From a virus, in the IMG/VR virus record IMGVR_UViG_3300009509_000013, positions 1 through 64,000 of that record: a stretch of DNA of 64,000 nt; one strand, 5' to 3'. Every line of letters begins with the position of its first letter. The first letter of the stretch is position 1. Positions 56,667 to 63,620 of the stretch are shown one piece after another. The notes under the pieces were generated by a model that searched no databases, was not told the DNA's origin, and saw only the letters and a list, made by a program, of their open reading frames with translations. A program made the position numbers and the translations under genes.

Positions 56667-57155
56667 TTACCACCACGCCCAACGATCATTAGGATCGCCC
56701 CAAGCTTCGCGCGGAATCTTGACCCGTTGCCCGGCGAAGCGACGCGCGTCAACTTCGAACGGGTTGTCGTAATACGAATGAAGATTTCGCATGAAGCAAA
56801 ATATGAAAATTGAGATCAAAAAGTAAAGGAAAGGCGAAAGAATCCCGAAGATCATTTGTTGTTTGACGTGTCGCGATTCATGCGGAATCGTCCGCTCGCC
56901 CTTCGCGTCGTGTCGAAGCACAATGAACGCGCCCGACGACCAACCGAGCCAACCGGGATCGCCCGGTTCGTTGTTCTTTCCTTCGAGCGTCTTCGAAAGC
57001 CAAGTTCCCTTGACCGTTCGGAACTCGACGAAATCAAGCGACGCTTCAACGAATCGAACTTGTCGGAACGCCCAAAGCCCGCCGATATAGATCGCGGAAA
57101 CGAGCGACACGGGAAGAAGCCAAATGTGACCGAGAATTTTCAAGAAAGACTTCAC
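56667..57155 (-). CDS. Membrane protein with HExxH-like motif
   Basis: 162 residues from a GTG at 57155 that overlaps the previous stop. Hydrophobic segments at about 8-28 and 102-122. Between them is IPHESRHVKQQ (His92, Glu93, His96) and after the second is NPFEVDARRFAG with acidic residues that could be the third zinc ligand. This is a membrane-embedded or membrane-bound metallopeptidase-like arrangement. Substrate unknown; it lies among packaging genes. Confidence 0.62.
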   Translation of the reverse strand: MKSFLKILGHIWLLPVSLVSAIYIGGLWAFRQVRFVEASLDFVEFRTVKGTWLSKTLEGKNNEPGDPGWLGWSSGAFIVLRHDAKGERTIPHESRHVKQQMIFGILSPFLYFLISIFIFCFMRNLHSYYDNPFEVDARRFAGQRVKIPREAWGDPNDRWAWW

Positions 57156-57823
57156 ATTTCCGCCTTTCGCTTTCGAACGACACGTCGCCCGCCGTGAACC
57201 TTGTTCGCTTTCGCCTTGTTCGTCTTGTTCTTTGCCTTCGTCTTCCCCGTGTTCCCCGCTTTCGTCATTGGAGCCGGCGGGAGCGCCGGCTTTTCGTCAT
57301 AATGCAACGCGCCGGGGTCCATGTCCAAAATTGACTGTTCCCCGTATTTCCCGATCAACGAATTCAAATTCGCGAGTTCGCTTGTGATCATGGTTCGAAG
57401 TTGTTTGTTCGTCATGTCCGAAACCATGACGCCGGCGAGAATTCGCTTTTCTTCGGGTCGCTTGTCGATCAACCCAATGTCTTGACCGAACTTCACGATC
57501 TTGTCGACAATATCCGACTTCGCCCGGATTGCCCCGACGCGCGCCGAAAGTTGTCCGGGAGCGAAGACGTCGCCCAATTCGTCGAGCGCCTTCAAGCAAG
57601 CCCGTTGCTCGACCATGTAATCGACGAAGACTTCTTCGACGGGTCGATTTCGGAGCCGTTCGCCTTCGAGTTCGTAAAGCTTCCGCTTCAACCGATCAAA
57701 TTGATCTTGTTCAAGCCCCATTGCGTCGCGAGCTTCGGCGTCGGACATTCCTTCGCCCAAGTGTGCAAGCAAGCGCGCAACCGCTCCGCGAAGTTCGTCT
57801 TTTGTCATTCCGAGCGTTGCCAT
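57152..57823 (-). CDS. Probable terminase small subunit
   Basis: 223 residues. N-terminal helix-turn-helix (EGMSDAEARDAMGLEQDQFDRLKRKLYE) followed by a helical oligomerisation region (about 60-160) and a very basic Lys-rich tail. It lies four genes upstream of TerL at the head of the packaging block and is read from its own TATAAT promoter. Small subunits recognise the packaging site. No direct family motif beyond the HTH is visible. Confidence 0.58.
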   Translation of the reverse strand: MATLGMTKDELRGAVARLLAHLGEGMSDAEARDAMGLEQDQFDRLKRKLYELEGERLRNRPVEEVFVDYMVEQRACLKALDELGDVFAPGQLSARVGAIRAKSDIVDKIVKFGQDIGLIDKRPEEKRILAGVMVSDMTNKQLRTMITSELANLNSLIGKYGEQSILDMDPGALHYDEKPALPPAPMTKAGNTGKTKAKNKTNKAKANKVHGGRRVVRKRKAEM

Positions 57824-57831
57824 TGCGCGGA

Positions 57832-57837
57832 ATTATA
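57832..57837 (-). promoter_or_regulatory. TATAAT box for the packaging operon
   Basis: A perfect TATAAT on the minus strand ends eight bases before the ATG at 57823, with a T-rich upstream region but no good TTGACA. A transcript starting about 7 bases downstream would be leaderless or nearly so. Confidence 0.6.
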
Positions 57838-57895
57838 GACCGAAAAGAGCAAAAAAACCTAGCGAAACGCCGGGAAGTCGATTCGTAAACGGAAC

Positions 57896-57921
57896 GCCGG
57901 CGGGGAGAATCCCCCGCCGGC
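57896..57921 (-). terminator. GC-rich terminator-like hairpin
   Basis: Perfect 10-bp stem, GCCGGCGGGG with CCCCGCCGGC, loop of six bases, followed by GTTCCGTTT. It separates the early region from the packaging operon promoter. Confidence 0.65.
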
Positions 57922-57951
57922 AACGGAACGGAAAGGAACGGAGATCAAAAA

Positions 57952-58671
57952 CTAGGCGACGCGCAAAAGCGAACGTTCAACGCCCTTCGATTGTGCCTTC
58001 GCGCGCCTTCGCGCGTCAAGCTTTTTCAAGCAACGTTCGGCTTTTGTTTCGTATTCGTCGCGCCGCTTTTCTGTCGGCGAACAACCCGCCGCCGCCAACC
58101 AATGCCCGGCGGCTTCCGAATAGCGAAGCTCCGCTTCGGCGTCGCGCGCGAGCTTCGCCCAATACGCCGGCGAACGTTGCTCCGCTTCGGAGCGCCGCTT
58201 TCGTTCGTAATAGTCAACCTTCGCTTGCCATTTCGACAATTGAGTTCGAAGCCGCTTGATCTTCGTCGTCAATTCTTTGACCTTCGCCTTCGCCTTGCGT
58301 TCCCGACCTTCCGACGCGAGCGCCGCGCGCTCCGCCTTCGACTTCGGTTGAAGCGGAACCTTCCGGCGAAGCTCGATCCCGTCGACTTCAACCGCCATGA
58401 TCCAAGGGTTTTCGGGAGCCGCGTCGCGACCGCCGGCGACGAACGCGCAACCCCAAGCGAGCGCTTGCGCGACCTTCGTCACGTCGACCGCGCCCTTCGG
58501 GATTCTCAGGCGAATTGACGACCGCCCCGCCCTAACTGTCGGGTGACTTTGCCGCGCGCCCGTGACCGTCAACGTCGCGCGCGTGACGCCCCATTCGCGA
58601 GCGATCCGCGTGAACAAGCTTCGGAGATCGCGCCCGTTCAAGTCGGTCTTGTTCTCGATTGCGAGCTTCAT
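57952..58671 (-). CDS. Coiled-coil protein, unknown
   Basis: 239 residues. An N-terminal ~90-residue mixed alpha/beta domain (LTVTGARQSHPTVRAGRS, SSIRLRIPKG) is followed by a long Lys/Arg/Glu coiled coil (about 115-190). The first part recalls the scaffold of phage SprT-like proteins, but the HExxH is absent (ALAWGCAFVAG at the place). Starts in an ATGA overlap with the receiver gene. Function unknown. Confidence 0.55.
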   Translation of the reverse strand: MKLAIENKTDLNGRDLRSLFTRIAREWGVTRATLTVTGARQSHPTVRAGRSSIRLRIPKGAVDVTKVAQALAWGCAFVAGGRDAAPENPWIMAVEVDGIELRRKVPLQPKSKAERAALASEGRERKAKAKVKELTTKIKRLRTQLSKWQAKVDYYERKRRSEAEQRSPAYWAKLARDAEAELRYSEAAGHWLAAAGCSPTEKRRDEYETKAERCLKKLDARRRAKAQSKGVERSLLRVA

Positions 58672-59006
58672 TTTTCCCCGCCTTTCGGTTGAAGCGCGGC
58701 TTCAATCGCCGCGCGAAGTGTCGTTCGACTTGCCGGCTTGCTCAAAATGGCGACCGCGCCAATCGGTTGAAGCGCCATTGACCCGGAGTGAATGACAACC
58801 GGAACCGGCGATTCTTCGAGAACGCGAGCCCCGCCGCCGTTCGGCATGACCCAATCGGAAACGACGACCGCCGCTTCGGAGTAAAGCGCCGCCGCTTCAA
58901 CCGGGTCGCTCGCCGTCACGACGTCGAAGCCTTCCCGCCGAAGCTCGCGCTCGACCGCCTTCAAGATCTCCGGCGTGTCGTCGACAATCAAAATCTTCGT
59001 GTTCAT
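58668..59006 (-). CDS. Stand-alone CheY-like receiver domain
   Basis: 112 residues, a complete receiver: acidic pair Asp9-Asp10 (LIVDDTPE), phosphoacceptor Asp51 (VVVSDWVMPNGG), Ser74 switch residue (VIHSGS) and Lys90 (ILSKPAS). No output domain is attached, so it would signal by protein contact, as CheY or Spo0F do. Receivers are rare in phages. It could tap a host two-component system. The start follows GGCGGGGAAT; an SD-covering hairpin lies before it. Confidence 0.8.
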   Translation of the reverse strand: MNTKILIVDDTPEILKAVERELRREGFDVVTASDPVEAAALYSEAAVVVSDWVMPNGGGARVLEESPVPVVIHSGSMALQPIGAVAILSKPASRTTLRAAIEAALQPKGGEK

Positions 59007-59982: not shown

Positions 59983-60021
59983 TTCTATACTTAGTGTCTC
60001 AAATTTCGGTTGAAGTGTCAA
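59983..60021 (-). promoter_or_regulatory. Conserved early promoter/operator, copy 1
   Basis: TTGACA, 26 bases, TATAGAA. The block TTGACACTTCAACCGA includes the imperfect palindrome TTGAcactTCAA; TGAGACACTAAG follows. Upstream DNA is AT-rich. Serves the genes from 59947 downward. Confidence 0.65.
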
Positions 60022-60071
60022 GCCTAATTTCGAAAAAAATCACCTAAAAATTCCCCTGAAATATTGCAGTT

Positions 60072-60248
60072 TTAGACCTTCCAAGGCGGCTTGACCCGCT
60101 CGACCTTGCCGGCTTTCGTGTTCCGGGAACGGTTGTTTTTGGAGCGCGAAAAAAGCGAGCGCTCGAAGCCGTCGTTCCGGTCGGCGTAAGAACCAAGCTC
60201 GACCGAAAGCGCGCGACGAAGTGAAAGCGTTGAAGCGTTGCAAGTCAT
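60072..60248 (-). CDS. 58-residue protein, unknown
   Basis: ATG at 60248 has the same leader (GGAGATCGGAACC) as another early gene, and the frame is free of CTG/CAG like the other coding genes. The product starts MTCNASTLSLRRALSVELG and is Arg/Ser/Lys-rich, ending VKPPWKV. Not recognised. Confidence 0.55.
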   Translation of the reverse strand: MTCNASTLSLRRALSVELGSYADRNDGFERSLFSRSKNNRSRNTKAGKVERVKPPWKV

Positions 60249-60274
60249 GGTTCCGATCTCCGTTCCTTCCGTTG

Positions 60275-60324
60275 CCGGCGGAGCCCCGCGCCCCGCCGGA
60301 GTTCGGTCGACCTATCGGTCGACC
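60275..60324 (-). other. Two hairpins after an early gene
   Basis: GGTCGACC-GATA-GGTCGACC (60305-60324), which includes the stop codon of the upstream gene, and CCGGCGG/CCGCCGG (60275-60299). Likely mRNA 3'-end structures; no T-run. Confidence 0.45.
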
Positions 60325-60575
60325 TTCGGGCAAAGGTCGCCTTGTGCGACCGCCGCCCGGAGCCAAGCCCGCGCGAAAGCTTTCGCCTTCGCGACGGACG
60401 AAAAGCCGCGCCCGCCGTCGATTGCTTCCCAAATGTGACCGAGCATTCCGAGCCGGTCGACGCGATAGTCGCCTTCGCGACCGTCGATTCGGAACGCGAG
60501 CGAATGAACCCGCGAGCCGATCTTCGCGGTTGCGGTTGCGCCATAAATGCGGGAGTCGACTTTTTTGAACGTCAT
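60312..60575 (-). CDS. Hypothetical early protein
   Basis: 87 residues from the ATG at 60575 (GGAG upstream; an in-frame ATG at 60608 lies inside the promoter). Contains VDSRIYGATATAKIG and WEAIDGGRGFSSVAKAKAFA. Function unknown. Under promoter copy 2. Confidence 0.55.
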   Translation of the reverse strand: MTFKKVDSRIYGATATAKIGSRVHSLAFRIDGREGDYRVDRLGMLGHIWEAIDGGRGFSSVAKAKAFARAWLRAAVAQGDLCPKVDR

Positions 60576-60607
60576 GGTTGAAGCTCCGTTGTTTGTCGTG
60601 TTCTTCA

Positions 60608-60646
60608 TTCTATACTTAGTGTCTCATGAATCGGTTGAAGTGTCAA
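60608..60646 (-). promoter_or_regulatory. Conserved early promoter/operator, copy 2
   Basis: TTGACA, 26 bases, TATAGAATG. Same blocks as copy 1; here GGTTGA and TCAACC also form a 6-bp inverted repeat across the -35-like box. Confidence 0.65.
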
Positions 60647-60734
60647 CCCCTAATTTCAAAAAAAATGATCTTTTTTCTGCTAGGAAAAATTGAAGTTTTG
60701 GCGGGGAGTTCGGGAGCGCGAAGCGCTTCAACCG

Positions 60735-60962
60735 TCAATAAAGAATCGTGTCGAAGCCCAACGAATCGCGCCGCCGGGGAAGGTCGCGCTTCGGAACGCC
60801 GGCTTCCGCCGCGCAAAACCCGACAAGTTCCGGCGAATCCGTGACGATCCCGACGCAAGTCTTCCCGAACATTCCGCGCCCGGAATAGTCGCGATAAACG
60901 CGCGCGCTTGCGCCTTCGTCTTCCATGCGTTCAACGATTGCTTCCGCTTGTTCAAGTGTCAT
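60735..60962 (-). CDS. Hypothetical early protein (75 aa)
   Basis: ATG at 60962 with GGAGATCGGAACA before it. Sequence begins MTLEQAEAIVERMEDEG, helical, then a beta stretch with a GRGMFGKT loop. Not recognised. Confidence 0.57.
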   Translation of the reverse strand: MTLEQAEAIVERMEDEGASARVYRDYSGRGMFGKTCVGIVTDSPELVGFCAAEAGVPKRDLPRRRDSLGFDTILY

Positions 60963-60988
60963 TGTTCCGATCTCCGTCAATGAACGAC

Positions 60989-61022
60989 GGAGCCCGCCGG
61001 CGACCGCCGCCGGCGAAGCTCC
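60989..61022 (-). other. Nested GC-rich hairpin between two early genes
   Basis: GGAGC/GCTCC outer arms and GCCGGCG/CGCCGGC inner arms. Lies in the 72-base gap between two early genes; no T-run follows. Confidence 0.45.
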
Positions 61023-61034
61023 GCGCGTTCGTGT

Positions 61035-61235
61035 TCACTTGCAAAACCGGGGAGCCGCGCCCCAACGTTCCGACGTGACGCGATCCGCTTCTTTGACGAT
61101 CAAAAGATCGGCGTCCGCGCGATAGCCCATGACGACCGCCTTCACGCCGAAATTTTCGACGACGTGACCGAAGGCGACCCAACGCCCCGACGCGATCTTG
61201 ACCGGCTCCATTCTGTCGTTTTCGAATTGTCGCAT
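61035..61235 (-). CDS. Hypothetical early protein (66 aa)
   Basis: ATG at 61235 (GGAGCGGAGCAA before it). VKIASGRWVAFGHVVENFG, beta-rich, with a Cys near the end (PRFCK). Not recognised. The longer frame to 61559 overlaps the next gene and is not supported. Confidence 0.57.
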   Translation of the reverse strand: MRQFENDRMEPVKIASGRWVAFGHVVENFGVKAVVMGYRADADLLIVKEADRVTSERWGAAPRFCK

Positions 61236-61261
61236 TTGCTCCGCTCCGTTTCGGTTGAAGG

Positions 61262-61291
61262 GGAGCGCCGGGGTCGAGCCCCGCGCGCTCC
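61262..61291 (-). other. Nested GC-rich hairpin between two early genes
   Basis: GGAGCGC pairs with GCGCTCC and CGGGG with CCCCG around a 5-base loop, with one unpaired base. Lies between the 92- and 66-residue genes. Confidence 0.48.
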
Positions 61292-61300
61292 GCGTTTCTG

Positions 61301-61579
61301 TTACTTGTTCACCATGCGATAGATCGTTTCGTTCAAGTTCTCGACGAAGACGCCGTTCGCCGACTCGACGACTTTCATTTCGTAGGTTCGGCGATTGAAG
61401 CGAACGAACTCGACGTCGTAAAGGTCGAGCGCTCGGTCGAGCTTGACGACGATCTTCGTCAACTTCGAACGACCGACGACGAAGTGAAGACCGTCTTCGC
61501 CCGCGACCGCTTGACGCGCTCCGCAAGCCATTTTTGTTCCGACCGTGATTTGACTCCAAATGATTTGACCCGCGTTCAT
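61301..61579 (-). CDS. Hypothetical early protein (92 aa)
   Basis: ATG at 61579 (AAAGGAACGG upstream). IIWSQITVGTKMACGARQAV then a beta-rich part with YDVEFVRFNRRTYEMKVV. Not recognised. Under promoter copy 3; an in-frame ATG at 61615 lies inside the promoter and is less likely. Confidence 0.57.
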   Translation of the reverse strand: MNAGQIIWSQITVGTKMACGARQAVAGEDGLHFVVGRSKLTKIVVKLDRALDLYDVEFVRFNRRTYEMKVVESANGVFVENLNETIYRMVNK

Positions 61580-61614
61580 GGTTTCCGTTCCTTTCGTTGT
61601 GTCCGTGTTCTTCA

Positions 61615-61653
61615 TTCTATACTTAGTGTCTCATAAAAAGCGGAGCCCGTCAA
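61615..61653 (-). promoter_or_regulatory. Conserved early promoter/operator, copy 3
   Basis: TTGACG, 26 bases, TATAGAATG, with the TGAGACACTAAG block intact. This copy has GGGCTCCG instead of CTTCAACC after the -35-like box, so the palindrome is lost while spacing is kept. Confidence 0.62.
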
Positions 61654-61703
61654 GCAAAAACGACAAGAAAAATTGAAAAAACGACATGAATTTTTCAAAT
61701 ATT
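61649..61703. repeat. 55-bp direct repeat, copy A
   Basis: Identical by eye to 63367-63421. AT-rich (AAAAACGACAAGAAAAATTG at its start) and placed directly upstream of promoter copy 3, so it may act as an UP element or activator site. Confidence 0.7.
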
Positions 61704-61996
61704 AGAGCCAAAACAGAGCCAAAACAGAGCCAAATTTCGTCAATAATTACGCCTAGTTGTGAACGACGCCCTAGAATGCCCTAGAATCGACGCAACGAAG
61801 CCCGCCCTTGTCCGCGCCCGTGCGACCCCTGAAACGCGCTTGACGCCCCGGAATTCGCGCCCCTATGCCCAAAATTGAGCCCTTCCGCCGGCGATTCAAC
61901 CGTTCGGGGAAGCGACGCTTCAACCGTTGCGCCCCGCTTCAACCGTTCGGGAGCCGTCGCTTCAACCGAAAGTGATCCAAGGGATCGAAGCCCGAT
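61654..61996. other. Non-coding repeat-rich region, possible origin or control region
   Basis: No convincing ORF on either strand. It has three tandem AGAGCCAAAAC-type units (61704-61731), two tandem GCCCTAGAAT units (about 61767-61786), an AT-rich end, and four clustered TTCAACCG copies (61895, 61919, 61938, 61961; a fifth at 62030 overlaps the stop of the next gene). Iterons plus an AT-rich stretch resemble replication or partition control regions, but no function is shown. Confidence 0.45.
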
Positions 61997-62018
61997 CCGG
62001 TCGGCTTGCGCCGACCGG
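61997..62018 (-). terminator. Hairpin after the 120-residue early gene
   Basis: CCGGTCGGC-GCAA-GCCGACCGG, a perfect 9-bp stem with a GCAA tetraloop, 13 bases after the stop codon. No T-run. Confidence 0.5.
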
Positions 62019-62030
62019 CGAGCGCTCGCT

Positions 62031-62393
62031 TCAACCGTGATACGCGGCGACGACCGAAACCTTCCCGGCGATCTCGCGTTTGAACTCCGCGACCATTTCG
62101 GGATCGAACGACCGGAACCGCGACCGGGAAGTCGACACGCCGTTCGCGCTTGTCGTCGACTCGCCGAAGATCGAAGCCGGGGTCGGTTGGTTCCAACCGT
62201 CAACGATCAAAATGAACGGAGCGAAGCCGCCGACGATCTCCGACTCGCTCCGCTTGCGCTTCGCGACGAAGCGAACGAACGGCGCGGCGTCGTATTGCGC
62301 CCAAGTCTTGCGCCCGTGTTCGATCAACTTCGCTTCAATCGCGATCACGTTTCCGAAAAGCTCGCTCTTTGTGTAAATCGTGACCTTTCGCAT
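62031..62393 (-). CDS. Hypothetical early protein (120 aa)
   Basis: MRKVTIYTKSELFGNVIAIE opens an alpha/beta protein with a FILIVDGWNQP strand-turn and a helical, Arg-rich C-terminal part. The repeated pattern of a charged strand followed by acidic loops does not match a family I know. AAGGGTCGG before the ATG; under promoter copy 4. Confidence 0.57.
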   Translation of the reverse strand: MRKVTIYTKSELFGNVIAIEAKLIEHGRKTWAQYDAAPFVRFVAKRKRSESEIVGGFAPFILIVDGWNQPTPASIFGESTTSANGVSTSRSRFRSFDPEMVAEFKREIAGKVSVVAAYHG

Positions 62394-62406
62394 TGTTCCG
62401 ACCCTT

Positions 62407-62535
62407 TCAAGCCTTGCGGCTTATGGTTGCGCGCTTCGCGGTTCCGGTCGTCGGGCGAACTTGGCAAGCGTTCCCGGTTGCCAGCGTTGCCAGAATGACC
62501 ATGATCGCGAATGCTTTGTTTGCCGTGTTCTTCAT
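62407..62535 (-). CDS. Possible 42-residue lipoprotein ORF
   Basis: ATG at 62535 lies 2 bases after the TATAGA of promoter copy 4. The product MKNTANKAFAIMVILATL continues to a lipobox-like GNAC and a basic tail, which looks like a small lipoprotein. No Shine-Dalgarno, and two in-frame CTG codons make it unlike native genes here. It may be leaderless, foreign, or chance. Confidence 0.35.
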   Translation of the reverse strand: MKNTANKAFAIMVILATLATGNACQVRPTTGTAKRATISRKA

Positions 62536-62573
62536 TCTATACTTAGTGTCTCATAAATCGGTTGAAGCGTCAA
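62535..62573 (-). promoter_or_regulatory. Conserved early promoter/operator, copy 4
   Basis: TTGACG, 26 bases, TATAGAATG, with CTTCAACCGATTTATGAGAC between. Serves the gene at 62031-62393. Confidence 0.65.
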
Positions 62574-62649
62574 GCAAAAAACGCAAGAAAATCTGATTTT
62601 TTTCGGGTTATTTTTCGGATATTTAGACGAAGGCGGCGATTTTTCGACG

Positions 62650-62676
62650 AAAACCGCCGGGAATCGAACCCGGCGG
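62650..62676 (-). terminator. Terminator with tRNA T-arm-like loop
   Basis: CCGCCGGG-TTCGATT-CCCGGCGG followed by TTTT. The 8-bp stem and T-run make a simple terminator for the LPD29-like gene; the loop looks like a T-arm (GGGTTCGATTCCC), but no other tRNA parts are present. Confidence 0.65.
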
Positions 62677-62690
62677 CTTGCGTTTCCGAC

Positions 62691-63305
62691 CTAGTAAAGC
62701 GCCTTGACCGCTTCGAGCAACCGGCGAGCCGTCACGACGTCGCCCGCGTCGATTGCCGCTTCAACGCGCGCGTGAAGCAAGTTCCGAGCGTCGGCGATTG
62801 CGTCGTTCGTCATGGGGATCGAAAGAACGTTCGCGGCTTCGGCGACCGGCTCCGCTTCAACCGTCGCGGCTTCGACGATTGCTTCGGCGGAGATCACAAC
62901 CGCCGGAGCCGCGCGGAGCGCTTCAAGTTGCGCGTCGGCGGCTTCGCGAACCGAAACATGCTTATAGAAATCAACGTCGAAATAGTCGGTCATTGAATCG
63001 GAGTCGTCGCGATTGTAGGCTTCGACGATCCCGGCGATCTTGTCTTCGGTTTCCTTCCAAGCGTCGAGCGCTTCCCAATCCCGCCCATATTCGTCGTTAG
63101 TGTCGCGAAGCGTGACGAATTGAACCGGAGCTTCTTTGACGTCGACGGAAAGGCTTTGGCCCATGCTGTAACGGGAAATCCGAACGCCGAACTTCCAACC
63201 CTTGCCGAAAGCGGCTTTCAAGTCGGCGCGAACTTTCTTCGCGACGTCTTTCAAGTCTTGCCCGTTCTCGAATTTGCTTCCAATGTATCCGCGTCCGTAA
63301 CTCAT
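62691..63305 (-). CDS. LPD29-like early protein
   Basis: 204 residues from the ATG at 63305 (GGCGGAGATC). The N-terminal ~115 residues match the large polyvalent protein-associated domain LPD29 pattern (GQDLKDVAKKVRADLKAAF, WKFGVRISRYSMGQSLSVDV). The C-terminal half is Ala/Glu-rich and helical. LPD29 is often found in mobile-element and phage proteins; biochemical role unknown. Longer frames to 63446 run into the promoter. Confidence 0.65.
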   Translation of the reverse strand: MSYGRGYIGSKFENGQDLKDVAKKVRADLKAAFGKGWKFGVRISRYSMGQSLSVDVKEAPVQFVTLRDTNDEYGRDWEALDAWKETEDKIAGIVEAYNRDDSDSMTDYFDVDFYKHVSVREAADAQLEALRAAPAVVISAEAIVEAATVEAEPVAEAANVLSIPMTNDAIADARNLLHARVEAAIDAGDVVTARRLLEAVKALY

Positions 63306-63332
63306 GATCTCCGCCTTTCTTGTTGTGTTCCG

Positions 63333-63371
63333 TTCTATACTCTTTGTCTCATAAATCGGTTGAAGCGTCAA
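63333..63371 (-). promoter_or_regulatory. Conserved early promoter/operator, copy 5
   Basis: TTGACG, 26 bases, TATAGAAC. Between the boxes CTTCAACCGATTTATGAGAC is kept but the CACTAAG block is AAAGAG. Serves the LPD29-like gene. Confidence 0.62.
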
Positions 63372-63421
63372 GCAAAAACGACAAGAAAAATTGAAAAAAC
63401 GACATGAATTTTTCAAATATT
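63367..63421. repeat. 55-bp direct repeat, copy B
   Basis: Identical by eye to 61649-61703. It again begins at the -35-like box of a conserved promoter (copy 5) and runs upstream. Confidence 0.7.
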
Positions 63422-63562
63422 CGGATTCATTGAAGATTTTCTTCAAAAAAAATTGCTTTTTTGGGGTCGATTTTTCTGAAATTAGGCTTCGACGGAGCCC
63501 CGGAACGGAGAAACCGGAGCCCCGTCGAGCCCGAACGGAACGGAACGAAGTCGATTCGTTGA
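63422..63562. other. Non-coding stretch, nothing recognised
   Basis: First AT-rich, then GC-rich with several GGAGCCCCG-type repeats. No supported ORF on either strand. Confidence 0.4.
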
Positions 63563-63607
63563 CCCGGCGAGCCCCGCCGGGAGCCGCCGGCGGTTAGCGC
63601 CGGCGGC
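63563..63607 (-). terminator. Tandem GC-rich hairpins after the right-edge gene
   Basis: GCCGCCGGCG-CTAAC-CGCCGGCGGC (10-bp perfect stem, 63583-63607) then CCCGGCG/CGCCGGG (63563-63581). The first lies 13 bases after the stop codon. No T-run. Confidence 0.52.
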
Positions 63608-63620
63608 TTTCGTCGTCGGT

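Follow-up and report, generated by a model that had tools for sequence, protein, structure and literature searches.

Near-identical copies of one strong bacterial-type promoter probably precede a row of small genes in the phage described here. Six copies were found, and we consider it likely that they are a duplicated cassette of a strong sigma70-type promoter used by the host RNA polymerase, in which the 26 bases that separate TTGACR from TATAGA arise from the distance between the -35 element and the transcription start. Most likely, then, these are strong early phage promoters of sigma70 type whose elements are 17 bp apart, of a known and fairly ordinary kind. Five of the copies (P1 to P5) lie in the window, the stretch of 64,000 nucleotides that was analysed and that belongs to a virus record of 74,285 bases (IMGVR_UViG_3300009509_000013; G000 below), the rest of which was also read. 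The sixth and more diverged copy, P6, lies outside the window at G000 64382-64420 (TTGACACGAACGCGGGAATTTGCGACACTGAGAATAGAA).

A probable promoter family between genes

An earlier note on this DNA described five sites that share TTGACR, TGAGACA and TATAGAA at a gap of 26 bases and proposed that they constitute one early promoter family. The description is exact: TTGACR-N26-TATAGA has exactly five zero-mismatch matches in the window, all on the minus strand (59984, 60609, 61616, 62536, and 63334), and TGAGACAN5TATAGAA has five matches there even with three mismatches allowed, as against a mean of 1.07 in shuffled sequence, where five were never reached. The note had further placed CTTCAACCGA after TTGACR in four copies, which holds for P1, P2, P4, and P5, and TGAGACACT 17 bases from TTGACR in four copies, which was confirmed, P5 having GACAAA instead. 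When columns are counted from the first T of TTGAC as 0, TTGAC (0-4), TG (20-21), GACA (23-26), AG (30-31), and ATAGAA (33-38) are invariant in all six copies. With genes called by a simple script, the conserved block occurs six times between genes in the record and never within one, and TTGAC[AG]-N17-GACA likewise has six occurrences in the genome, all of them intergenic. A motif equally common inside genes, which the note had named as the finding that would count against its proposal, is thus not what the record holds, and the proposal of a single family is supported. The family is real and non-random.

The similarity of the copies reaches approximately 55 bp further upstream, where repeat analysis revealed an AT-rich tract of two types, A in P1, P2, and P6 and B in P3, P4, and P5 (Table 1). 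Because these tracts of approximately 55 bp are shared in two types, the six copies are taken to be duplicated promoter cassettes. All of the conservation seen is among paralogous copies of one phage and is possibly recent.

Table 1. Features of the promoter copies and their transcription units, in coordinates of the window.
Feature	Position	Strand	Remarks
P1 UP-like tract, type A (common to P2, P6)	60022..60076	minus	AT 0.73 over 41 bp; repeat D1
P1 -35 TTGACA	60016..60021	minus	
P1 TGn (59999-60001) and -10 GACACT (59993-59998)	59993..60001	minus	17 bp from -35; best sigma70 pair
P1 start region AAGTATAGAA	59983..59992	minus	predicted +1 59986, from spacing
P1 gene	59063-59947		predicted UTR to ATG 39 nt
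P2 core TTGACA...TATAGAA	60608..60646	minus	predicted +1 60611; gene 60312-60575
P2 UP-like tract, type A	60647..60701	minus	AT 0.80
P3 core, spacer without CTTCAACCG	61615..61653	minus	predicted +1 61618; gene start 61579
P3 UP-like tract, type B	61654..61708	minus	51/55 identical to P5 tract
P4 core	62535..62573	minus	predicted +1 62538; first clear gene 62031-62393
P4 UP-like tract, type B	62574..62628	minus	
P5 core	63333..63371	minus	-10 is GACAAA, without T-7; predicted +1 63336; gene 62691-63305
P5 UP-like tract, type B	63372..63426	minus	
Terminator-like hairpin, end of P1 unit	57895..57922	minus	-26 kcal/mol, z -4.3
Terminator-like hairpin with TTTT, end of P5 unit	62650..62680	minus	-22.2 kcal/mol, z -4.9
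Hairpin, end of P6 unit, without clear T run	63582..63610	minus	-25.9 kcal/mol, z -4.4

The probable -10 element and origin of the 26-base gap

Sigma70-type element pairs at every spacing were scored by an approximate E. coli position matrix, whose weights may not fit the -10 preference of the host's sigma factor. By this approximate matrix, the best pair in each of the six copies is TTGACR-17-TGn-GACACT (GACAAA in P5). The best-pair free scores, on the same approximate weights, are 10.3, 10.3, 8.3, 8.3, 6.7, and 10.3 for P1 to P6, and any other pair reaches at most 6.1. The -35 is at or near consensus throughout (TTGACA or TTGACG), the TG directly before the -10 is invariant, and both the 17-bp distance to the -10 and A-11 are found in all six copies; T-7 is present in five, and GACACT matches TATAAT at only three of six positions. 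Upstream of the -35, the AT content is 0.68-0.80 across the copies (genome mean 0.44, 99th percentile 0.63), and the columns from -17 to -12 before the -35 include invariant T positions, where an UP subsite would be expected.

The architecture proposed from these elements would comprise an UP tract, the -35 TTGACR, 17 bp, TGn with a weak -10 GACACT, and a start in TATAGAA. TATAGAA would accordingly be read as the start region, not as a -10 box, with transcription beginning at its second A if GACACT is the -10. The consensus -35, the UP tract, and TGn would together compensate for the poor -10, and P5, with GACAAA and without T-7, is predicted to be weaker than the other copies. Such promoters would presumably be used by the unmodified host holoenzyme on phage entry, hence “early,” a timing that we infer from position and gene type. 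The earlier note had held that 26 bases are too long for ordinary sigma70 and had raised a dedicated sigma factor or activator. No such factor is needed, since the gap runs from the -35 box to the region where transcription would start; it is probably the distance between these two and not itself a distance of recognition. A side remark in the same note, that TGaGACACT lies 17 bases from TTGACR, proved to be the better assignment of the -10, giving the best-scoring sigma70 pair throughout.

The exchange of spacer sequence between copies bears on the same question, most tellingly in P3 and P5. P3 and P5 are identical at 51 of 55 upstream positions and 16 of 19 positions of the block, but at only 1 of the 10 bases of the spacer, whose length is unchanged; the corresponding values for P1 and P6 are 37/55, 16/19, and 3/10. 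A spacer swapped in sequence at constant length would be expected if the -35 and TGn were two contacts of one polymerase and the spacer itself were not touched. A spacing of 17 bp is the optimum, and the spacer upstream of -15 has no known specific contacts (review PMC2613000).

The predicted leaders measure 39, 36, 39, 31, and 16 nt for P1, P2, P3, P5, and P6, respectively, the first gene of P4 being uncertain. In P6, with the ATG 16 nt from the predicted start, the ribosome-binding AAAGGG is retained, and GACACT is preferred over AATAGA in this copy because AATAGA as -10 would leave approximately 7 nt before the ATG and remove AAAGGG. Leaderless transcripts beginning at the ATG of TATAGAATG (P2-P4) were also considered; this ATG shares its frame with the start codon that follows, but it is absent from P1, P5, and P6, and the segment was therefore read as leader.

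Predicted transcription units and neighbouring genes

Each promoter copy precedes one to three small genes and would drive a short unit of them, at least three of the units being closed by a strong hairpin. That the units are short and self-contained is suggested by the strong hairpins after the P1, P5, and P6 units (Table 1).

Several features of the surrounding genes were observed in passing. One gene of the P1 unit encodes a response-regulator receiver domain that stands alone (58668-59006, minus strand; Pfam Response_reg, E 2.9e-11), which is unusual in a phage. The small ORF after P4 (window 62407-62535, minus strand), whose translation includes MKNTANKAFAIMVILATLATGNACQ, is similar to a signal peptide or to a lipoprotein of short length. 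A perfect TATAAT stands approximately 8 nt before the ATG of the gene at 57152-57823 (window 57824-57860, minus strand), a position that suggests a leaderless or very-short-leader transcript where the packaging region starts. A gene for an ATP-dependent DNA ligase lies outside the window (G000 71264-72289; L006 16265-17290).

Alternative readings of the conserved block

The poor match of GACACT to TATAAT and the loss of T-7 in P5 speak against the sigma70 reading. So does conservation that extends through TATAGAA, beyond what a -10 needs, which either recent duplication or an operator could explain. It is possible, though unlikely, that the promoters are of sigma70 type and that the -15/+4 block TGnGACAcTnAGwATAGAA is in addition the operator of a phage regulator, e.g., an HTH_3 protein, which would shut all units together. 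The length of the block and its near invariance in six copies would fit such a role, as would the position of the HTH_3 gene (G000 64611-64868; Pfam E 1.4e-7), which is transcribed divergently from P6, the first copy. The promoter-like TTGTCG-17-TAGAAT of that gene itself speaks for the sigma70 reading. Repressor genes are often divergent from the promoters that they control, and near the promoter family no clear candidate for a regulator other than the HTH_3 protein was found. Nevertheless, the block contains no convincing dyad, only ACTnAGT, which is broken in P5 and P6 on opposite sides, and recent duplication explains the identity of the block equally well. Relatives of the HTH_3 protein that might serve for footprinting were looked for and not found.

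The earlier note had also drawn attention to a palindrome, TTGAcRctTCAA, on the -35. It is present in four copies, but as a general feature of the -35 it was rejected, being missing, with CTTCAACCGA, from P3 and P6 (two of the six promoters). Its second half is formed by CTTCAACCG, the commonest 9-mer of the genome, with 69 copies in 74 kb. Within predicted genes, 55 copies are observed vs. 11.6 expected from synonymous codon shuffles, an excess that is partly a general word bias because some other words show a comparable surplus, and the division by strand (40 vs. 29) reveals no orientation with transcription. Four to five copies approximately 20 bases apart also make up an iteron-like intergenic array at 61895-62040 of the window. 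The palindrome is weak evidence for an operator, since P3 and P6 lack it and half of it is the genome's commonest 9-mer. We regard it as quite unlikely that a phage regulator reads the long -15/+4 block while CTTCAACCG, in four promoter spacers and the iteron-like array, serves as a second site of protein binding across the phage genome.

It is very unlikely that TATAGA is the true -10, with TTGACR at its 26-base distance upstream serving an activator or being recognized through a sigma appropriator or a dedicated sigma factor. TATAGA as a lone -10 does outscore GACACT (3.0 vs. 1.0 by the approximate E. coli matrix), and P5 retains it despite losing T-7. However, a -35 is lacking at the 16-18 bp upstream of TATAGA where one would be expected, TTGACR directly follows the UP tract, and P6 has AATAGA, from which the start would fall within the ribosome-binding site. 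Nor do the phage's own proteins favor a dedicated sigma factor: a profile search in which positive controls matched gave no match to Sigma70_r2 in the 74-kb record (itself possibly incomplete), and region 4 yielded just a weak, below-cutoff match (Sigma70_r4, E 0.01) in an HTH/excisionase-like protein (G000 72160-73215).

The notion that the block is the promoter of a phage single-subunit RNA polymerase (T7/SP6-like) is scarcely credible and was rejected, for CACTAAGTATAG and GACACT...ATAGAA resemble T7 and SP6 promoters in their letters only, the fixed TTGACR and the UP tract are left unexplained, and no RNA_pol domain was found in the scanned ORFs of at least 600 aa, the largest of a possibly incomplete record. 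For the 723-aa baseplate ORF the profiles used were those of PHROGs, and a whole-record search for an RNA polymerase, run without a positive control, was empty.

Relatives of the phage

Among 50,697 phage records there was no DNA match to the phage, and the core pattern had no exact match in viral or genome contigs, in which near-identical records are possibly hidden. P1-P3 are present in L007, a contig that comes from the same phage and is 99.8% identical. Relatives by terminase (63-70%) have different early regions from which the motif is absent, and it is likewise absent from the DUF6011 relatives L021 and L022. No phylogenetic footprint is therefore possible, as the early regions of the relatives are without the motif. 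A search of genome contigs with the terminase, aimed at the host, gave no match. L013, one of the relatives by terminase and from the same series of samples, has two copies of a promoter-like repeat of its own, TTTACT-17-TATATT, at 960-1010 and 1940-1995, with AT-rich sequence upstream.

Implications and comparison with known systems

For an uncultured myovirus, the probable sigma70-type promoter family provides a map of probable early transcription units together with candidate takeover genes. The copies also represent natural promoter variants, with a spacer swapped at constant length and a weak -10, that are useful for studies of how UP, -35, and TGn elements compensate for one another. Furthermore, the 26-base spacing no longer demands that a new sigma factor be postulated.

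The early promoters of T4 are likewise built of UP, -35, TGn, and -10 elements (PMC2988021), and the family described here resembles them in its many copies before small early genes, its stacked RNA polymerase contact elements, and its UP tracts. In contrast to T4, whose -10 boxes are good, the present copies have the weak GACACT, are all packed into 4.5 kb, and derive from a single cassette by duplication. In -35/TGn promoters such as gapAP1 and Pminor, TGn offsets a poor -10 (PMC2613000), and the same combination of a consensus-like -35 and TGn with a poor -10 is seen here; those, however, are single promoters, whereas this is a repeated phage family with an UP-like tract added. The kayvirus vB_SauM-515A1, whose 58 early promoters have in common TTGACW and an extended -10 at 17 bp (PMC7698491), is similar in its TTGACW-17-TRTGN-TATANT family, its 17-bp spacing, and the many short units of a myovirus. 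Its promoters differ in being dispersed, in having a consensus -10, and in belonging to a Staphylococcus phage, whose own sigma factor serves late genes (PMC7698491). Lastly, the operators and stoperators of Cluster A mycobacteriophages (PMC6550527) share with this phage a word that recurs across the genome and stands at an early promoter, here CTTCAACCG beside the -35. Stoperators lie mostly in one orientation to transcription, whereas CTTCAACCG is divided 40/29 by strand, lies mostly in genes, occurs at four of the six promoters only, and has no known repressor.
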